From the NCBI GenBank assembly GCA_947629175.1, contig CANRCT010000014.1, positions 1 through 64,000 on the forward strand: 64,000 bases of DNA. Reading direction: 5' to 3'. Below, one piece after another: positions 41,852-48,746 of this stretch. The position numbers were made by a program, and so were the translations under genes. The DNA comes from an uncultured Muribaculaceae bacterium. Its GTDB lineage: Bacteria > Bacteroidota > Bacteroidia > Bacteroidales > Muribaculaceae. How positions within the stretch are numbered: position 1 is the stretch's first letter; the number at the start of each line of letters is the position of its first letter. Below the pieces are notes generated by a model. It ran no database searches. It had not been told where the DNA came from and saw only the letters and a program-made list of their open reading frames with translations.

Positions 41852-42640
41852 ATGATAAAATCGGAGAAATCAGAAAAATCGGAGCTATCGGAGAGCGCGG
41901 AGCTCTGCCGCGACCGCTGCCCGCAGCTCACCATAATAGAGGAGGCCGCATCGACCAACACCCTTATGGCCGAAGCCGACCGCGGGGGATGCCTGCCCCA
42001 CGGCGCGGCCATCATGGCGCGGCGCCAGACCGCCGGGCGCGGGCAGAGGGGCAACCACTGGGAGAGCGAGCCGGGGATGAACGTCACTCTGTCGATAATG
42101 CTGCGGCCGGAGGGAGTCGAGGCAAGGGAGCAGTTTCTCGTGTCGGAAGCGGTGGCCATAGCCACTGCCGAGACTGTCAGGGAGCTGACCGGGCTTCAGG
42201 CGGAGGTGAAATGGCCCAACGACATATATATAGGTGATCGCAAGATAGCGGGCATACTGATAGAGTGCGCCCTCGAAGGGAAGCGCATCAGCAGGGCGAT
42301 AGCCGGAATAGGGCTCAACGTCAACCAGACCGCATGGCTGAGCGACGCCCCCAATCCGGTCAGCATGCGCGAGCTGACCGGGTCGGCGTATGATGTGGAG
42401 GCTACCGCGCGGATGCTCGTGGAAAAAGTGACCCGGCTGACGGCTGCCCTTCCGTCATCGGCCGGTGAGACGGAGCGTCGCTACGCCTCGATGCTGTGGA
42501 GGCGCGAAGGGAGCCACAGCTGGGAAGACGCAGCGAGCGGCGAGGTGTTCAGCGCCGGCATAGCGCGGGTGGAGCGCACCGGCCGCCTCGTGATGGACAA
42601 CGGCAGATGCTACTGGTTTAAGGAAGTGAAGTGGCGTTAG
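41852..42640 (+). CDS. birA: Biotin--[acetyl-CoA-carboxylase] ligase
   Basis: A 262-residue biotin protein ligase that attaches biotin to carboxylase subunits. ARRQTAGRGQRGNHW is the biotinyl-AMP binding loop, KWPNDIYIGDRKIAGIL is the conserved core, and GIGLNVNQ follows. It lacks the N-terminal DNA-binding domain of E. coli BirA, so it does not act as a repressor. Oddly, the first 16 residues (MIKSEKSEKSELSESA) come from a 9-base tandem repeat and are not part of the family fold. It is followed by the capsid-type gene cluster. Confidence 0.92.
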   Translation: MIKSEKSEKSELSESAELCRDRCPQLTIIEEAASTNTLMAEADRGGCLPHGAAIMARRQTAGRGQRGNHWESEPGMNVTLSIMLRPEGVEAREQFLVSEAVAIATAETVRELTGLQAEVKWPNDIYIGDRKIAGILIECALEGKRISRAIAGIGLNVNQTAWLSDAPNPVSMRELTGSAYDVEATARMLVEKVTRLTAALPSSAGETERRYASMLWRREGSHSWEDAASGEVFSAGIARVERTGRLVMDNGRCYWFKEVKWR

Positions 42641-42676
42641 CGACAAACACGCAGCTTAAGGGGGCCGTCCGTAGAG

Positions 42677-42684
42677 TAATTTTG
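42677..42684 (+). promoter_or_regulatory. -7 box at the head of the capsid-type gene cluster
   Basis: TAATTTTG 35 bases before the first gene of the cluster. No canonical -33 element was seen. Its presence suggests the cluster has a host-type promoter. Confidence 0.5.
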
Positions 42685-42718
42685 CATCATCAACAAGCGA
42701 TAAACCCTACGGAACGAA

Positions 42719-43057
42719 ATGGAAGAAGAACTGAAAGAAACGAAGGCCACGCCTGCACAGCCGGCACAGGAAAAGGAACAGAAACCAGCGGAGACGGCAC
42801 AGGAGCCTGCGGCGTCGCCTGAAGGGGCGATAACGCCCGAAAGCGTGATGAAGCTCATAGCGGAGGCCGAAAAGCGCGGATTTGAGCGCGGCAAGGCTGC
42901 CGGAGCCGAAGAGGAGAGAGAAAACGCGCGGAAATGCGGCAGCGGCTCCATATGGGAGGATACGCGGCTGACAGAGGCTGAGAATGAACAGCGGCGAAGC
43001 CGACTGCAGATCGACGACGAATTTCTGACCAGGCTGCGCCCGACAGCCTGGGACTGA
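42719..43057 (+). CDS. Small acidic protein, scaffold-like, first gene of capsid cluster
   Basis: A 112-residue protein without a recognised family. The N-terminal 35 residues are rich in Glu, Lys, Pro and Ala (TPAQPAQEKEQKPAE), then a likely helix (VMKLIAEAEKRGFERGKAAG) and a charged C-terminus. Phage scaffolding and capsid-assembly proteins placed before the capsid gene are often small, acidic and helical, so this is a reasonable guess from position. No protease motif is present. It precedes the capsid gene by about 100 bases of very AT-rich DNA. Confidence 0.55.
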   Translation: MEEELKETKATPAQPAQEKEQKPAETAQEPAASPEGAITPESVMKLIAEAEKRGFERGKAAGAEEERENARKCGSGSIWEDTRLTEAENEQRRSRLQIDDEFLTRLRPTAWD

Positions 43058-43090
43058 AAAACAGTCAGAGAGCCACGAGTATGATTTTAT

Positions 43091-43127
43091 ATAAATTTAT
43101 ATAAGTTTATATAATTTATATAAACTT
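43091..43127. repeat. AT-rich palindrome before the capsid gene
   Basis: Perfect inverted repeat AAGTTTATATAA/TTATATAAACTT around a single T (43103-43127), preceded by two more TTTATATAA copies. It is a sharp AT island in GC-rich DNA. Confidence 0.75.
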
Positions 43128-43159
43128 ACAACCAATCACAATCTTTATCTAAATCAATT

Positions 43160-44425
43160 ATGGGAGAAATTTCAGTAAAAGCCGAAGGCATGGCCGGAGG
43201 AACCCACGTGGCCGACGGGCCGCTGACCACAGTAAACATCCGCGAGGCATCGGCCGACCTGCTGCGCAACGACGTTGACAGTCGCGTGGCCCGCGTAAGA
43301 CCGATGGCGACTCCGGTCGACCAGATCTCGCGCATGATAGGCGCACGCCGCGCCTCGTCGATGGTTGTCGAATACTATTCTGTCGACACCAAGGCCCAGA
43401 CAGCTCAGGCATCGTCCGAACTCAGAATAATCGGCGACACCCACGGAAGCGGACTGCCGGTGTATGAGCTCACTACCGACAACGACACCGTTTTCGCCGT
43501 GACCGACACCATAATGGTGAAAGGCGCCAAGGGTGTGCCGGAGACTACGGGCGGCGATGCGCCCGATCTGGTGCTCTACGTAGTGGGACGGGGCGACGGC
43601 GGCCAGGGACTCCATGTGATAGCGGTCAACGCCGGCGAGAGCGGCGAAGTGAGCGCCGAGGTGAGCGGCAAAACCCTCGTCAGGATGGGACGCGCCGCGG
43701 CCGAGCTCGACGTGCAGACCCCGCAGTTCGAGGCGCTTCCCCGCAAGGCCCGAAACTACTGCCAGATCTTCAAGGCCCAGGTGGAACAGAGCGTGCTCTC
43801 GCGCCTCAGCTCCAAGGAGACCGGCTGGACATTCAGCGATCAGGAGGAGGTTGCGATCATGGACATGCGCCTGGGCATGGAGAAGAGCTTCCTCTTCGGC
43901 ACCAAGGCGCGGGTGACCGATCCGCTGCGGTCGGACGAGGTGCTCTTCACCGGAGGAATCTGGAATCAGGCAGGCAGCGACTTCAGCTACTCCGCCATCA
44001 GCGAGAACACTCTGATAGACCTGATGAAGACCGCATTCACCGGCAGCAACGCCGGCTCCGGACGCAAAGTGCTCCTTGCAGGCAGCGAGCTGACCGCCCT
44101 GCTCAACAAGATCAGCTATACGCGCGTGGCGCAGGCCTCCGACAAGGTGACCCACTGGGGTATAGACTTCTCGGAGATCCGCTCTAAGTTCGGCTCGCTC
44201 TACGTGATCCATGCCGAAGTGTTCGACCAGTGCGGCCACGAATACGACGGCCTGGTGATCGATCCGGAATATCTGGTGAAGTATGTCCACGTGCCGTTCA
44301 GGGTGGAGCGGCTCGACCTGCGCAAGTCGGGACAGCGCAACACAGAGGCCGTCGTGGCCACGGAGGCGAGCTGCCTGGCTCTCCGCCATCCGAAGTCGCA
44401 TGTCAGAGTGACCCGCAGCGTCTGA
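43160..44425 (+). CDS. Phage-type major capsid protein (DUF5309/SU10-like)
   Basis: A 421-residue protein resembling the HK97-fold major capsid proteins of the SU10/DUF5309 group: VRPMATPVDQISRMIG and MVVEYYSVDTKAQT near the N-terminus, FSDQEEVAIMDMRLGMEKSFLFG in the middle (in parts), and a C-terminal region with GKVLLAGSEL-like strand and VVATEASCLALRHPKSH. Such proteins assemble into icosahedral shells. The gene is intact, full length and of host-like composition. It lies directly before a short connector-like gene and a portal gene. The family call is from pattern recognition and should be confirmed by a profile search. Confidence 0.75.
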   Translation: MGEISVKAEGMAGGTHVADGPLTTVNIREASADLLRNDVDSRVARVRPMATPVDQISRMIGARRASSMVVEYYSVDTKAQTAQASSELRIIGDTHGSGLPVYELTTDNDTVFAVTDTIMVKGAKGVPETTGGDAPDLVLYVVGRGDGGQGLHVIAVNAGESGEVSAEVSGKTLVRMGRAAAELDVQTPQFEALPRKARNYCQIFKAQVEQSVLSRLSSKETGWTFSDQEEVAIMDMRLGMEKSFLFGTKARVTDPLRSDEVLFTGGIWNQAGSDFSYSAISENTLIDLMKTAFTGSNAGSGRKVLLAGSELTALLNKISYTRVAQASDKVTHWGIDFSEIRSKFGSLYVIHAEVFDQCGHEYDGLVIDPEYLVKYVHVPFRVERLDLRKSGQRNTEAVVATEASCLALRHPKSHVRVTRSV

Positions 44426-44429
44426 CACC

Positions 44430-44987
44430 ATGCCGATCACTATCCGACTGACCGAAGATGAACTCCTGCAGCGCGTGCGCCTGACGCGCTGCATGGAGCC
44501 TCCGGCCGAATCCGGCACGGTTATAATCAGAGAGGACGCCCCGGTGGCCGACCTGTGGCTCAAGGCCACTCTGCGCATGCGCTACGAGAAGATGATGACT
44601 GCCGACGATCCCTCCGGGCTGCCGCTGACCGACTGCACCGCCACGGCCACTGTCGAAGCATCGCCCGGCGACCGCACTCGCTGCGAACTTTATCTGCCGC
44701 CAAGTGCGGTGAGAGCCGTAAGCGTCAGGCTGCGCGGGTGGCTTGCGGATGCAAAGATAGTGCCTCCCGACAGCGAGGAGGCGGCCGACCAGACGAGCGA
44801 ATACGGCCGCGCAGGCCGATGCCGCCCGATAGCCGTGGACCACGGCGACGGGCATCTGACCCTTTACGGCGGTTTCGATGGCGCGACACCCACCGCCGAA
44901 CGTATCACAGCGGTAGCGCTGCCCCCGGAAGGTGAATATCTCCTCACGCCCGCGATGCTCCACTCACTCGCCGGCTGCGAATGCTAA
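44430..44987 (+). CDS. Hypothetical protein between capsid and portal genes
   Basis: A 185-residue protein beginning 5 bases after the capsid stop. It is beta-rich and has no recognised family. Segments such as LWLKATLRMRYEKMM and CELYLPPSAVRAVSVRLRGW recall small phage head or connector proteins, but this is a weak impression. Its position between major capsid and portal genes and the tight spacing imply a joint role in a head structure. A cysteine-bearing C-terminus (LAGCEC) is unusual. Confidence 0.6.
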   Translation: MPITIRLTEDELLQRVRLTRCMEPPAESGTVIIREDAPVADLWLKATLRMRYEKMMTADDPSGLPLTDCTATATVEASPGDRTRCELYLPPSAVRAVSVRLRGWLADAKIVPPDSEEAADQTSEYGRAGRCRPIAVDHGDGHLTLYGGFDGATPTAERITAVALPPEGEYLLTPAMLHSLAGCEC

Positions 44988-45005
44988 AACACAACAATCC
45001 GAACT

Positions 45006-46418
45006 ATGCACAACGACGACAATGCCCTCAGGCTCGCGGCCTCGGCCTGGATGGCCGGGGAGAACCTGCGCCGGCGGCGCAGACGCCTGAAAAGATATAC
45101 CTACGGCGATCAGTGGTCGGATCCCGTCAGACTCCCGTCGGGAATCACCGTCACCGAAGGAGAGGCCGCCTCCGAAGGGGGCGAACGACCTATGACCAAC
45201 AATCTGATACGCCAGCTCGTGAAGAGCGTGGTGGGACTTTACCGGCGCGACTTCAGCCCCGCCGACTGCGGCACCGACAGCGCGACGGCCCGGCGCAACA
45301 GTCTGCCGGAAATGGACGCCCGCATGCTTGAGGAATTCCTGATATCGGGATGCGCCGTGCAGCGGGTGACGGCCGAGCGGCGCATCGAGGGCGACGGAGT
45401 ATGGGTAGACAACGTCAGTCCGGAGCGCTTTTTCGTCAACCCCCATCTCGATCCGCGCGGATCCGACATAGAGATAGCCGGCATGATCCACGAGATGAGC
45501 CTGCGAGAGCTGACAGTGAGACTCGGAGGGGCCGACGAGGCCAGGCGCAGGATGATCGAGCGGATATATCTCGGGCATGACAGGAGAACCTACGGCGATG
45601 GCGATGCCGGAGAGGCCATAGCCGAGATGACCCGGCCTGACACTCCCGGCAGGTGCCGCGCGATAGAACTGTGGACGCTCGAGAGCCGGCGCATAATCCG
45701 CTGTTATGATCCGGCTTCGGGCGAGGGATTCGCCGTAGGCCCTGATGAAGAGGTCAAGCTCCGGCGCATCAACCGGCGGCGCAAAGCCGCAGGAAAGAGC
45801 GCAGGCCCCAGCCGGGCACCGCTCAGCTGGAGGCGCGCCGACACGCTGCGCTGGCACTGCCGGTGGATAGCTCCCGACGGCAGCGTGATGAGGGAATACG
45901 ATTCCCCGTGGCCCCACGGACGGCACCCTTTCGCCATAAAGATGTATCCGCTGACCGACGGTGAGATACACTCTTTCGTGGAGGACGTCGTAGACCAGCA
46001 GCGCATCATCAACCGCATGATCACCCTGATGGAGAAGATAATGAGCGTATCGGCAAAGGGAGTGCTCCTCTTCCCCACCGACCGGCTGCCCCCTGATCTG
46101 ACGTGGGCCGACCTGTCCAATCTGTGGAGCCGGCCCGGAGCCATCCTCCCCTTCAAGCCGTCGGAACGATCCTCGGAGCCACGGCAGCTCACATCGTCGG
46201 GCGACTGCGGAGCCGACCGTATGCTGCAGATACAGACCTCGATGCTCGAACAGATATCGGGCGTCAACAGCTCGCTGCAGGGCCGCGACACCACGGGCAA
46301 CACTTCGGCCGCGCTCTACGACGCCCGCACCCGCAACGCCACCACCGCGCTGATAGATATCATAGAGGCGTTCAGAACATTCATCGACAAGCGAAACAAA
46401 CTGATCGCCGGCATGTGA
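45006..46418 (+). CDS. Phage portal protein
   Basis: A 470-residue portal-type protein. RLKRYTYGDQW, TNNLIRQLVKSVVGLYRRD, the central HPFAIKMYPLTDGEIHSFVED (in parts), RIINRMITLMEKIMSVSAKG and the C-terminal SGVNSSLQGRDTTGNTSAALYD are typical of portals of tailed phages, which form the dodecameric DNA gate of the head. It is shorter than many portals (often 500-700 residues), with the last helical barrel part missing. It lies downstream of the capsid gene, the reverse of the usual terminase-portal-capsid order, and no terminase gene is present. Confidence 0.8.
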   Translation: MHNDDNALRLAASAWMAGENLRRRRRRLKRYTYGDQWSDPVRLPSGITVTEGEAASEGGERPMTNNLIRQLVKSVVGLYRRDFSPADCGTDSATARRNSLPEMDARMLEEFLISGCAVQRVTAERRIEGDGVWVDNVSPERFFVNPHLDPRGSDIEIAGMIHEMSLRELTVRLGGADEARRRMIERIYLGHDRRTYGDGDAGEAIAEMTRPDTPGRCRAIELWTLESRRIIRCYDPASGEGFAVGPDEEVKLRRINRRRKAAGKSAGPSRAPLSWRRADTLRWHCRWIAPDGSVMREYDSPWPHGRHPFAIKMYPLTDGEIHSFVEDVVDQQRIINRMITLMEKIMSVSAKGVLLFPTDRLPPDLTWADLSNLWSRPGAILPFKPSERSSEPRQLTSSGDCGADRMLQIQTSMLEQISGVNSSLQGRDTTGNTSAALYDARTRNATTALIDIIEAFRTFIDKRNKLIAGM

Positions 46419-46467
46419 TTTGCATATTTTAACCAAAGAGATACTTATTCTTGCCCGGGCGCACCCT

Positions 46468-46475
46468 TAACTTTG
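46468..46475 (+). promoter_or_regulatory. -7 box before the last two genes of the capsid cluster
   Basis: TAACTTTG, 70 bases before the 141-residue gene; a TTG lies only 14 bases upstream. Suggests separate transcription of the last two genes. Confidence 0.4.
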
Positions 46476-46545
46476 CAACACCCGACACAACCCGACAGAC
46501 ACTCGACCTTTAACCCTTTATCACAGCCACCACACCCTACAGACT

Positions 46546-46971
46546 ATGACCACCACACGCAACACCCACCTCCCCGCCCTCTCGCCCCGCGACCGCGACT
46601 TCATAGCCGCGTGCCGCAGGGTGATGGCATCGAGCGGCCGCACCAGCCTGACCGCAGCCGAAATCGCCGGCATAGCCTCGCGGCAGCCCGCACCGTCATA
46701 TTATCTCAGCCACGAGCAGGCCATGCGCCAGCTCCACAGAGCCGACACCGGCGCCGACCCGGGCAAAGCTCACCCGTCGACCCTCAGCCGGCGGGAGGAG
46801 CTGCGCCGCAAGGTGGCCGCGCTGCAGGAAAGCAGAGGCATAGGGCGCGGAGAGGCGCTGACGCACGTGCTCGCCGGAGGAGCTTCGGGATTCTTCATCG
46901 AGCCGTCGACCGCCCTCAGGCTCTATCAGCGGATACGCCAGCGACGCCGCCGGGCCATGAAAAACGCATGA
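46546..46971 (+). CDS. Hypothetical basic protein of the capsid cluster
   Basis: A 141-residue, arginine-rich protein without a recognised family. A helical N-terminal half (LSPRDRDFIAACRRVMASSG) is followed by SLTAAEIAGIASRQPAPSYYLS, which looks like a helix-turn-helix, and a basic C-terminus (RIRQRRRRAMKNA). It may bind nucleic acid. The overlapping alternative frame at 46473-47024 gives only a Pro/Arg-rich shadow. It lies 127 bases after the portal gene and 58 bases before the last gene of the cluster. Confidence 0.6.
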   Translation: MTTTRNTHLPALSPRDRDFIAACRRVMASSGRTSLTAAEIAGIASRQPAPSYYLSHEQAMRQLHRADTGADPGKAHPSTLSRREELRRKVAALQESRGIGRGEALTHVLAGGASGFFIEPSTALRLYQRIRQRRRRAMKNA

Positions 46972-47029
46972 GTCGCAGCAGGCCGATACTCATATATTCA
47001 TCAACATCAGTCCAGAAACAATAAAGACA

Positions 47030-47467
47030 ATGACAGGCATATCAATCGACGCAGCCATAGCTGAAATACTGGCCGACAACGCCCTCCGGCGCCGACTCGG
47101 GCGCATGACACCGGGCCTTATCACGACCGACAGCCGCGAGGCCCTGGCCACAGGCCTTCGGGCGGCGACCGCACGAATCATAGCGCTGACAGCGCCCTAT
47201 ACGCGCATCATCGCCGACGACGGTGAGATAATGACCATCGATACTCCCGATGAAATGACCGACGCCGAACGCTCGCTATCCGCGAGGCTGATCACCCACG
47301 CGGCCGGCCGACGGATGCTGGCCGACCTCTATTCCGGAAGCGATCCGGATATGGCGGCTGCCTACGTGCGCTCGGCCGAGGCCAGCGAGTCGGCGCTGCG
47401 GGAGATAATGGCACGCGCCACTTCGGGCAACGCATCAGCGCCGCCGATCAAAGGACACCTCTATTGA
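47030..47467 (+). CDS. Hypothetical protein, last gene of the capsid cluster
   Basis: A 145-residue, mostly helical protein of unknown family. IDAAIAEILADNALRRRLGRM at the N-terminus and DPDMAAAYVRSAEASESALREIM at the C-terminus (in parts) are amphipathic helices. Size and position would fit a head-completion or connector protein, but nothing in the sequence proves it. The gene converges on the U32 peptidase gene 20 bases away, which marks the end of the cluster. Confidence 0.6.
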   Translation: MTGISIDAAIAEILADNALRRRLGRMTPGLITTDSREALATGLRAATARIIALTAPYTRIIADDGEIMTIDTPDEMTDAERSLSARLITHAAGRRMLADLYSGSDPDMAAAYVRSAEASESALREIMARATSGNASAPPIKGHLY

Positions 47468-47486: not shown

Positions 47487-48746
47487 CTACCGGGAGCCTG
47501 CCGCGAGAGCTGTGGGCTCCCAGACATACAGGCGGTCGGCCGGTCTGATGCGCGAGGGGAGGGGCATGGAGAATGCCTCTCCCTTCACCGTTTTCTCCAC
47601 CGGCCTGAGATCGACACGTATCTCGCCGACGGTAGTGATGAGCGCGCCGGTGGTCGGGCCGGTGACGACGATCTCGTCGCCCACATGGAGCTCGCCGGCC
47701 TCCATGACAAACTCCCCTACCCCCAGCCGCGGGAACCATTTCACAGCTTTGGCGGCATAGCGCTTCACGCGGGTGGCCGACGAGCCGTATTTGCCCGACC
47801 ACTCACCGAGCCGCTGTCCGAGATAATAACCGTTCCAGAATCCGCGGTTGAACACCTTGCGGAGCTCAGCCGTCAGCTCCTCTACGAGCGCGGCGCCGTA
47901 GGTGCCGTCGCAGAGCGCGCGCAGAGCGCGGTCGTAGGCGCCGACGACGGTGGCCACATATTCCGGACCGCGGGCGCGGCCCTCGATCTTCAGCACCCTC
48001 ACTCCGGCATCGGTCAGACGGTCGAGGAAACCGATCGTGCAAAGATCCTTCGGCGACATGATATACTGGTTTTCGATATCGAGCTGATCGCCCGTCTCGC
48101 AGTCGGTGACGGTGTATGACCGGCGGCATATCTGGGTGCAGGCTCCGCGGTTGGCCGACGAGTTCATCTCGTGGAGGCTCAGATAGCACTTGCCGCTGAC
48201 GGCCATGCAGAGAGCGCCGTGGCAGAACATCTCGATGCGCACCGGCTTGCCGCCGGGCCCGAGGATCGGACGCCGGCATATCTCGCGGTGGATCGCTCCG
48301 ACACGGTCGAGCGACAGCTCGCGGGCGAGCACCACCACGTCGGCCCACTGCGCGTACATCTCCACAGCCTCCACGTTGGAGATATTGGCCTGAGTGGAGA
48401 TATGCACCTCCACACCACGGCTCCGGGCATAGAATATCGCGGCCGGATCGGCGGCTATGATGGCCGAGATCCCGGCCTCGGCGGCCGCATCGATGATGTC
48501 GTGGAGCAGCGCTATGTCGTCGTCGTAGATGATGGTGTTGACGGTGAGATATGTCTTCACTCCCGCGCGCGCGCATAGCGAGGCTATGTGGCGCAGATCG
48601 TCGAGAGTGAAGTTGGCACTCGACCTGGAGCGCATATTGAGCCCCTCCACTCCGAAATACACCGCGTCGGCTCCGGCTCTTATCGCAGCCTGAAGCGACT
48701 CGTAGGAGCCCACCGGAGCCATTATCTCAAAATCCTGACGTGTCAT
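47487..48746 (-). CDS. U32-family peptidase-like protein (TrhP/RlhA type)
   Basis: A 419-residue U32 protein. APVGSYESLQAAIRAGADAVYFG at the N-terminus (in parts) is the TIM-barrel start, and the signature EMFCHGALCMAVSGKCYLS with the later cysteines in GACTQICRR hold an iron-sulfur cluster in related enzymes. TrhP (YegQ) and RlhA of this family hydroxylate uridine in tRNA or cytidine in rRNA, using prephenate; peptidase activity is also claimed for some members. It precedes no partner but shares a short gap (7 bases) with the nitroreductase gene upstream, so they are cotranscribed. Confidence 0.88.
   Translation of the reverse strand: MTRQDFEIMAPVGSYESLQAAIRAGADAVYFGVEGLNMRSRSSANFTLDDLRHIASLCARAGVKTYLTVNTIIYDDDIALLHDIIDAAAEAGISAIIAADPAAIFYARSRGVEVHISTQANISNVEAVEMYAQWADVVVLARELSLDRVGAIHREICRRPILGPGGKPVRIEMFCHGALCMAVSGKCYLSLHEMNSSANRGACTQICRRSYTVTDCETGDQLDIENQYIMSPKDLCTIGFLDRLTDAGVRVLKIEGRARGPEYVATVVGAYDRALRALCDGTYGAALVEELTAELRKVFNRGFWNGYYLGQRLGEWSGKYGSSATRVKRYAAKAVKWFPRLGVGEFVMEAGELHVGDEIVVTGPTTGALITTVGEIRVDLRPVEKTVKGEAFSMPLPSRIRPADRLYVWEPTALAAGSR

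Follow-up and report, generated by a model that had tools for sequence, protein, structure and literature searches.

A Capsid-Portal Cassette of Muribaculaceae as the Probable Head Locus of a Dispersed, GTA-Like DNA-Packaging System

Introduction

The gene transfer agent (GTA) of Rhodobacter capsulatus, RcGTA, is siphovirus-like and has one large structural operon. It belongs to the Rhodogtaviriformidae and is encoded at five chromosomal loci (PMC9662315). GTAs are defined as Caudoviricete-derived proteins forming virion-like particles, the genes for which are completely endogenised in the host, often at multiple loci, and are inherited mostly vertically, co-diversifying with the host; the encapsidated DNA is mostly random host DNA that is delivered to other cells, and full packaging of their own genome is impossible (PMC9662315). 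FpGTA of Faecalibacterium is a podovirus-like, GTA-like element in which about 10 kb encode TerS, TerL, portal, scaffold and major capsid protein (MCP), with structural and lysis genes at a separate locus and no visible tail; it was present in every Faecalibacterium genome examined in that study (PMC12946183).

The locus described here lies in a window of 64,000 nucleotides (the whole stretch of DNA analysed), the host of which is a Paramuribaculum-like member of the Muribaculaceae. Like RcGTA, it is part of a phage-derived gene set that has become endogenous at several places in the chromosome, but its MCP and portal are of the SU10/P22 type, unlike those of the siphovirus-like RcGTA, and in some genera even these two genes are separated. 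FpGTA is the closest functional parallel, being podovirus-like, from a gut commensal, and with lysis genes at a second locus. However, FpGTA belongs to one genus, whereas the Muribaculaceae system extends over most of a Bacteroidota family and, in most species, places head, terminase and lysis genes each at separate loci. Particles and packaged DNA have been observed for FpGTA; the present system is predicted from its genes and is called GTA-like. With a probability of roughly 0.6, the cluster is the head/neck operon of a domesticated, podovirus-like, dispersed DNA-packaging system, that is, a GTA or a GTA-like system.

The Capsid-Portal Cassette

Six plus-strand ORFs are packed between birA and the gene of a U32 peptidase (Table 1), as the sequence-only reading had described, and the capsid- and portal-like motifs noted there correspond to clear Pfam matches. 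G1, G3, G5 and G6 had no Pfam match above the cut-off. The host-like GC content and the host-type promoter box (TAnnTTTG, ending at about 42685) were likewise confirmed, as was the lack of an integrase within the cassette and of att-like direct repeats flanking it; no tRNA was found at the cassette, and no terminase or lysis gene within it. G1 ends in a FLxxxRPSVWD-like motif, and its profile relative is the gene that precedes the MCP in phages. The portal comprises 470 aa, versus 590-670 aa in Bacteroides phages and prophages, the shortening being at the C-terminus.

Table 1. Coordinates of the cassette (42719-47467), its flanks and the associated terminase
Feature	Coordinates	Strand	Remarks
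birA	41852-42640		5' neighbour
Promoter	42640-42686	+	GCGACAAACACGC-N23-GTAATTTTGCA; also present at the terminase, holin and spanin-like loci of this genome
G1, scaffold-like protein	42719-43057	+	Invariably directly 5' of MCP
AT-rich repeats, G1-MCP gap	43084-43128		Four near-tandem 16-mer copies (AATTTATATAAGTTTA-like), spacing 9-10 bp
Major capsid protein (MCP), SU10-type	43160-44425	+	Pfam SU10_MCP, E=1.3e-52
G3, conserved head-region protein	44430-44987	+	Phage homologue directly 3' of MCP
Portal, P22-type	45006-46418	+	Pfam P22_portal, E=4.2e-20; phrog_156, 1.2e-36 (PHROGs)
G5	46546-46971	+	Two HTH-like repeats; phage homologues adjoin large terminase
G6	47030-47467	+	Predicted fold as in tail adaptors of short-tailed phages (T7 gp11, P22 gp4, SU10)
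U32 peptidase	47487-48746		3' neighbour
Large terminase, another contig	G000 C23:17058-18893		

The last two genes had been listed as small unknowns in a cluster without a tail, a description that no longer fits G6. Its AlphaFold2 model is confident (pLDDT 91.5), and each of the 12 best-scoring VIA-align matches is a structure of the tail, portal-tail or adaptor of a short-tailed phage (Z of 9.9 for KHP30, 8.7 for HRP29, 7.8 for SU10, 7.6 for T7, 7.0 for Sf6 gp7 and 6.5 for the P22 complex). These Z values are modest and the Foldseek E-values by themselves not significant, so that the predicted tail-adaptor fold follows from the coherence of the match list rather than from the size of Z. The G5 model is of similar quality (pLDDT 90.8), and a structure search gave no clear match. 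An assignment as small terminase on structural grounds was thus rejected; the position of its homologues beside the terminase in phages makes G5 a possible small terminase.

Distribution in the Family

The MCP was present in 57 of 101 relatives, nearly all from one family. Named records, among them Paramuribaculum intestinale DSM 100749 at 89% identity, identify it as Muribaculaceae. When 225 genomes of the family were searched by profile, the MCP was recovered from 174 of the 223 near-complete ones and from 25 of 26 genera. Because drafts and metagenome assemblies make up the bulk of the genomes, these and the following counts should be read as minimum values, and the "unlinked" status of two genes is established on long contigs only. 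Among the 174 carriers the copy number is nearly always one and the frame open. Absence from close relatives, which the sequence-only reading had named as an argument against its proposal of a domesticated phage head, is therefore not what the family displays.

Gene clustering around 41 MCP loci revealed the recurrent order G1-MCP-G3-portal-(G5-G6). The synteny with birA and U32 that had been suggested as a check holds in part: the cassette frequently adjoins one of these genes and in other cases lies at unrelated sites. Where at least 4 kb downstream of the MCP was available (59 loci), G3 and portal were found in 54, G5 in 30 and G6 in 33. In several genera, the locus consists of the MCP and G1 alone.

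Terminase, C1 and Portal at Other Loci

The gene for the large terminase could be traced because prophages (L061-L067) and cultured Bacteroides phages with related capsids pointed to it. A profile combining four copies from prophages with three from the vicinity of a cassette detected it in 58 of the 101 relatives, and in most MCP carriers the gene is single and open. It lies on another contig in the window's genome (Table 1), and at 103 kb (G042), 795 kb (G006) and 956 kb (G040) from the MCP on long contigs of others, where the separation is certain. In all 42 terminases compared, whether from dispersed loci or from phages, the Walker A lysine, the ATPase glutamate and the nuclease D, E and D residues are unchanged; solved structures among the relatives are those of large terminases, including T4 gp17. 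"Without terminase" is thus accurate inside the cluster and wrong for the genome as a whole. A terminase elsewhere had been named as a sign of a recently broken prophage; one was indeed found, but it does not carry that meaning because it is conserved across the family like the MCP.

In 19 of 27 loci the terminase is adjoined or closely accompanied by C1, a large gene whose product gave a profile match (3.6e-22) to gp26 of phage BS-TP4, and no match to a protein family, to the PDB or to phages by tblastn; a known fold was not recognised in it. C1 may be a large virion-type protein, possibly adhesin-like, and is the fastest-evolving large component.

MCP, portal and terminase are all kept in 30 of 37 near-complete sampled family genomes, and two of the remaining seven carry only a divergent MCP. 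Some species are without one or more of these hallmark genes, and in G011 portal and terminase are both broken. In genomes with a locus of MCP and G1 alone, a third locus holds the portal (G056, G057, G053, G055, G049, G037, G059 and others); its frame is open, apart from a single internal stop in G055.

Such solitary MCP-G1 loci would suit a protein shell or storage compartment of the encapsulin type that holds no DNA. Yet the apparently "MCP-only" genomes were rejected as encapsulin-like since portal and terminase are present at their other loci, the terminase active site is invariant, and no conserved cargo gene adjoins the MCP, all of which makes this reading very improbable. The related suggestion of a packaging-free head selected as an empty shell fails on the cognate, active-site-intact terminase and on lysis genes at other loci. 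A phage satellite or parasite, the small capsids of which would package a mobile element upon infection by a helper phage, would account for the presence of head and packaging genes. Capsid-forming satellites have such genes of their own and obtain tails from the helper. In the Muribaculaceae, however, no integrase and no satellite-like unit was found, the components occupy separate loci, and most species of the family have a single copy; this explanation is accordingly judged quite unlikely.

Promoters and Lysis Genes

The promoters of the cassette and of the C1-terminase locus share the pattern CGACAAACNCGC-N22-AGTAATTTTGCA, which in its exact form occurs only at these two sites in the window's genome. 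A mismatch-tolerant or relaxed pattern adds exactly two further sites, one 5' of a solitary PF05105 holin gene and one 5' of a DUF6808 gene, whose product, with a membrane anchor at its N-terminus and relatives in phages, appears spanin-like. Six simulated genomes contained no match to the pattern. In the P. intestinale-like genome G005 the same four units are among 13 promoter sites. The holin was detected by single-sequence search in 41 of 61 family genomes, mostly as a single gene. Independently of the promoters, its membership of the system is indicated by its position near the portal in genomes of two other genera: holin, G3 and portal form one run in G048, and in G050 the holin and an M15 peptidase (PF08291) lie beside the portal, with the peptidase in between. 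The earlier statement that lysis genes are lacking therefore applies inside the cluster and not to the genome, where holin and spanin-like genes occupy other loci.

A dedicated regulon was considered and rejected. The equivalent promoter element has 36 near-copies in G007, many of them 5' of housekeeping genes, and host genes are also among the sites in G005 and G012. Judged from these sites, the promoter appears to be a shared host promoter class, of which four of four sites in the window's own genome are phage-like. The G007 element (L237-L246, L257-L276) is long, highly conserved and GCAACTTTTAGCGTATAGGCCAAATTCGCAGATT-N17-TAAnTTTGC-like, and other species have their own versions.

Neither a dedicated endolysin nor a complete tail was found in the window's genome. 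The only M15_3 peptidase detected there, on contig C49 of the same genome (G000), was rejected as the endolysin of the system, given that it sits in a separate prophage-like region. Also in this region (L396) are a tape-measure-like gene of 1383 aa and another DUF6808 gene.

The head and lysis genes could also belong to a killing particle that packages host DNA and eliminates competing relatives instead of delivering genes, exactly as PBSX of Bacillus subtilis behaves (PMC7667829, PMC12946183). The retained lysis genes and the possible adhesin-like protein C1 would fit such a particle. Against it, the analysis turned up no tail of the long contractile or siphovirus type, and the predicted adaptor fold of G6 points to a short tail, a build not known from killing particles. 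This is an unlikely reading, if the strongest of the rivals.

Phage Relatives and Phylogeny

The nearest phage homologues are the Bacteroides temperate phages BF1-TP2, BS-TP4 and BKO1-TP3 together with Muribaculaceae prophages, at identities of 38-40% for the MCP, 34-35% for the portal and 38-39% for the terminase; the capsids of prophages L061-L067 are about 36-40% identical to the cassette MCP. As in the dispersed system, the Bacteroides phages encode profile homologues of G1, G3 and G5, and BS-TP4 a homologue of C1. Unlike the cassette, these phages and prophages have an integrase or regulators, very large virion proteins and another gene order.

A quick tree of 65 capsids places the 34 dispersed MCPs together on one side of a branch with support of 94, apart from the prophages, and 16 of 16 sampled rows from the window's genus fall in one group (support 100). 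Two genomes from other families of the same order (G081, G087), with genes likewise scattered among housekeeping genes, nest within the Muribaculaceae MCPs, which leaves some uncertainty as to transfer or rooting. MCP and terminase distances are weakly correlated (Mantel r=0.20, p=0.05), and TsaD identities were too flat to serve as comparison. Vertical inheritance is supported at the genus level and putative beyond it.

Since related phages and prophages infect the same hosts, the head proteins might act as an anti-phage decoy or interference system. PADLOC-DB defence models, however, gave no match to ten proteins at E up to 0.01, and a decoy would need neither an active-site-intact terminase nor a holin and a spanin-like gene; the idea has very little in its favour.

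Selection

A comparison of the window with G005 gave dN/dS values of 0.12 for the MCP, 0.12 for the terminase and 0.17 for the portal, 0.19 for the holin and 0.23 for the spanin-like gene, and 0.27-0.37 for G1, G3, G5, G6 and C1. Host neighbours gave 0.10 (U32), 0.13 (nitroreductase) and 0.25 (birA). The hallmark genes are under strong purifying selection, similar to host genes, and the values near 1 that would have spoken for decay were not observed.

A decaying prophage had been put forward as the simple alternative. The phage origin of the genes, the degenerate portal and terminase of G011 and the one stop in the G055 portal are in its favour, but frames are intact in nearly all of the 174 species, dN/dS of the hallmark genes is 0.12-0.17 and the MCPs occupy a branch separate from the prophages, so that it is contradicted by the results and the least probable of the explanations weighed here. 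Nor is a functional prophage indicated, as the cassette has no integrase or att-like repeats and host genes border the terminase, the holin and the spanin-like gene at their own loci. Conversely, the proposal of a domesticated phage head is strongly supported by the family-wide single-copy conservation, the strong purifying selection and the host promoter, and gene transfer, one of several functions that the sequence-only reading had listed, is now the preferred one.

A Probable GTA-Like System in Muribaculaceae

The MCP, portal, terminase, holin and adaptor relate to those of tailed phages by sequence similarity. The genes are endogenised at four or more loci in the window's genome, and MCP, portal and terminase are separate in many genera. 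With loci 100-950 kb apart, full self-packaging is very likely impossible. The label "GTA-like" is preferred to outright membership because the sequence covers the definition only in part (PMC9662315).

According to the proposed mechanism, a subset of cells would transcribe all loci together. Capsids would assemble on the portal, and the terminase would pack pieces of the host chromosome in a headful-like manner. The G6 adaptor, probably with C1, would close the head and tip a short tail, after which the holin and the spanin-like protein would lyse the cell and the released particles would bring DNA to kin. The genes would be inherited with the host, as there is no replicating or excising unit.

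This arrangement suggests that Muribaculaceae may make virus-like particles that move their own DNA. A literature search of mostly open-access papers found none that joins GTAs with Muribaculaceae and, among those mentioning both GTAs and Bacteroidota, no report of a GTA in Bacteroidota; within that literature this would be the first GTA or GTA-like particle in Bacteroidota. The stronger claim, to which we give even odds, is that of a working GTA in most Muribaculaceae, with possible relatives in neighbouring families: an "exploded" podovirus with capsid, portal, terminase and lysis genes at separate host loci, the first GTA in Bacteroidota and a hidden, major route of DNA exchange in the mammalian gut.

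Muribaculaceae are dominant in the mouse gut. In particle fractions from this habitat, 83 contigs with transduction patterns were from Bacteroidetes, and patterns of generalised transduction or GTAs were found on 46 contigs (PMC7667829). If family-wide, host-controlled packaging is true, it would offer a concrete source for the unexplained bacterial DNA in these fractions. A GTA with singly scattered genes can evade prophage finders, and systems of this kind may thus be overlooked on a wide scale. A close carrier, Paramuribaculum intestinale DSM 100749, is cultured, making the claim directly testable.

Variants

A divergent version with about 39% MCP identity occurs in the window's genus (L061 and L402 of G002; L062, L403 and L404 of G032). 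Its terminase is on a separate contig in both genomes, and in G032 the portal is separate as well; it is possibly a second, independently dispersed lineage.

Several capsid ORFs (L042, L043, L046, L048, L049, L050, L055, L063-L066, L069) begin with a strongly hydrophobic, anchor-like segment, found in dispersed systems and prophages and missing from the window's MCP; the cause may be capsid assembly linked to the membrane, or start codons that were called wrongly. A contig listed as viral (L072) carries two copies of the cassette as an inverted duplication; it is probably a bacterial fragment that was misassembled. One compact cluster still unites the genes in G054 and L159, an arrangement that may be ancestral.
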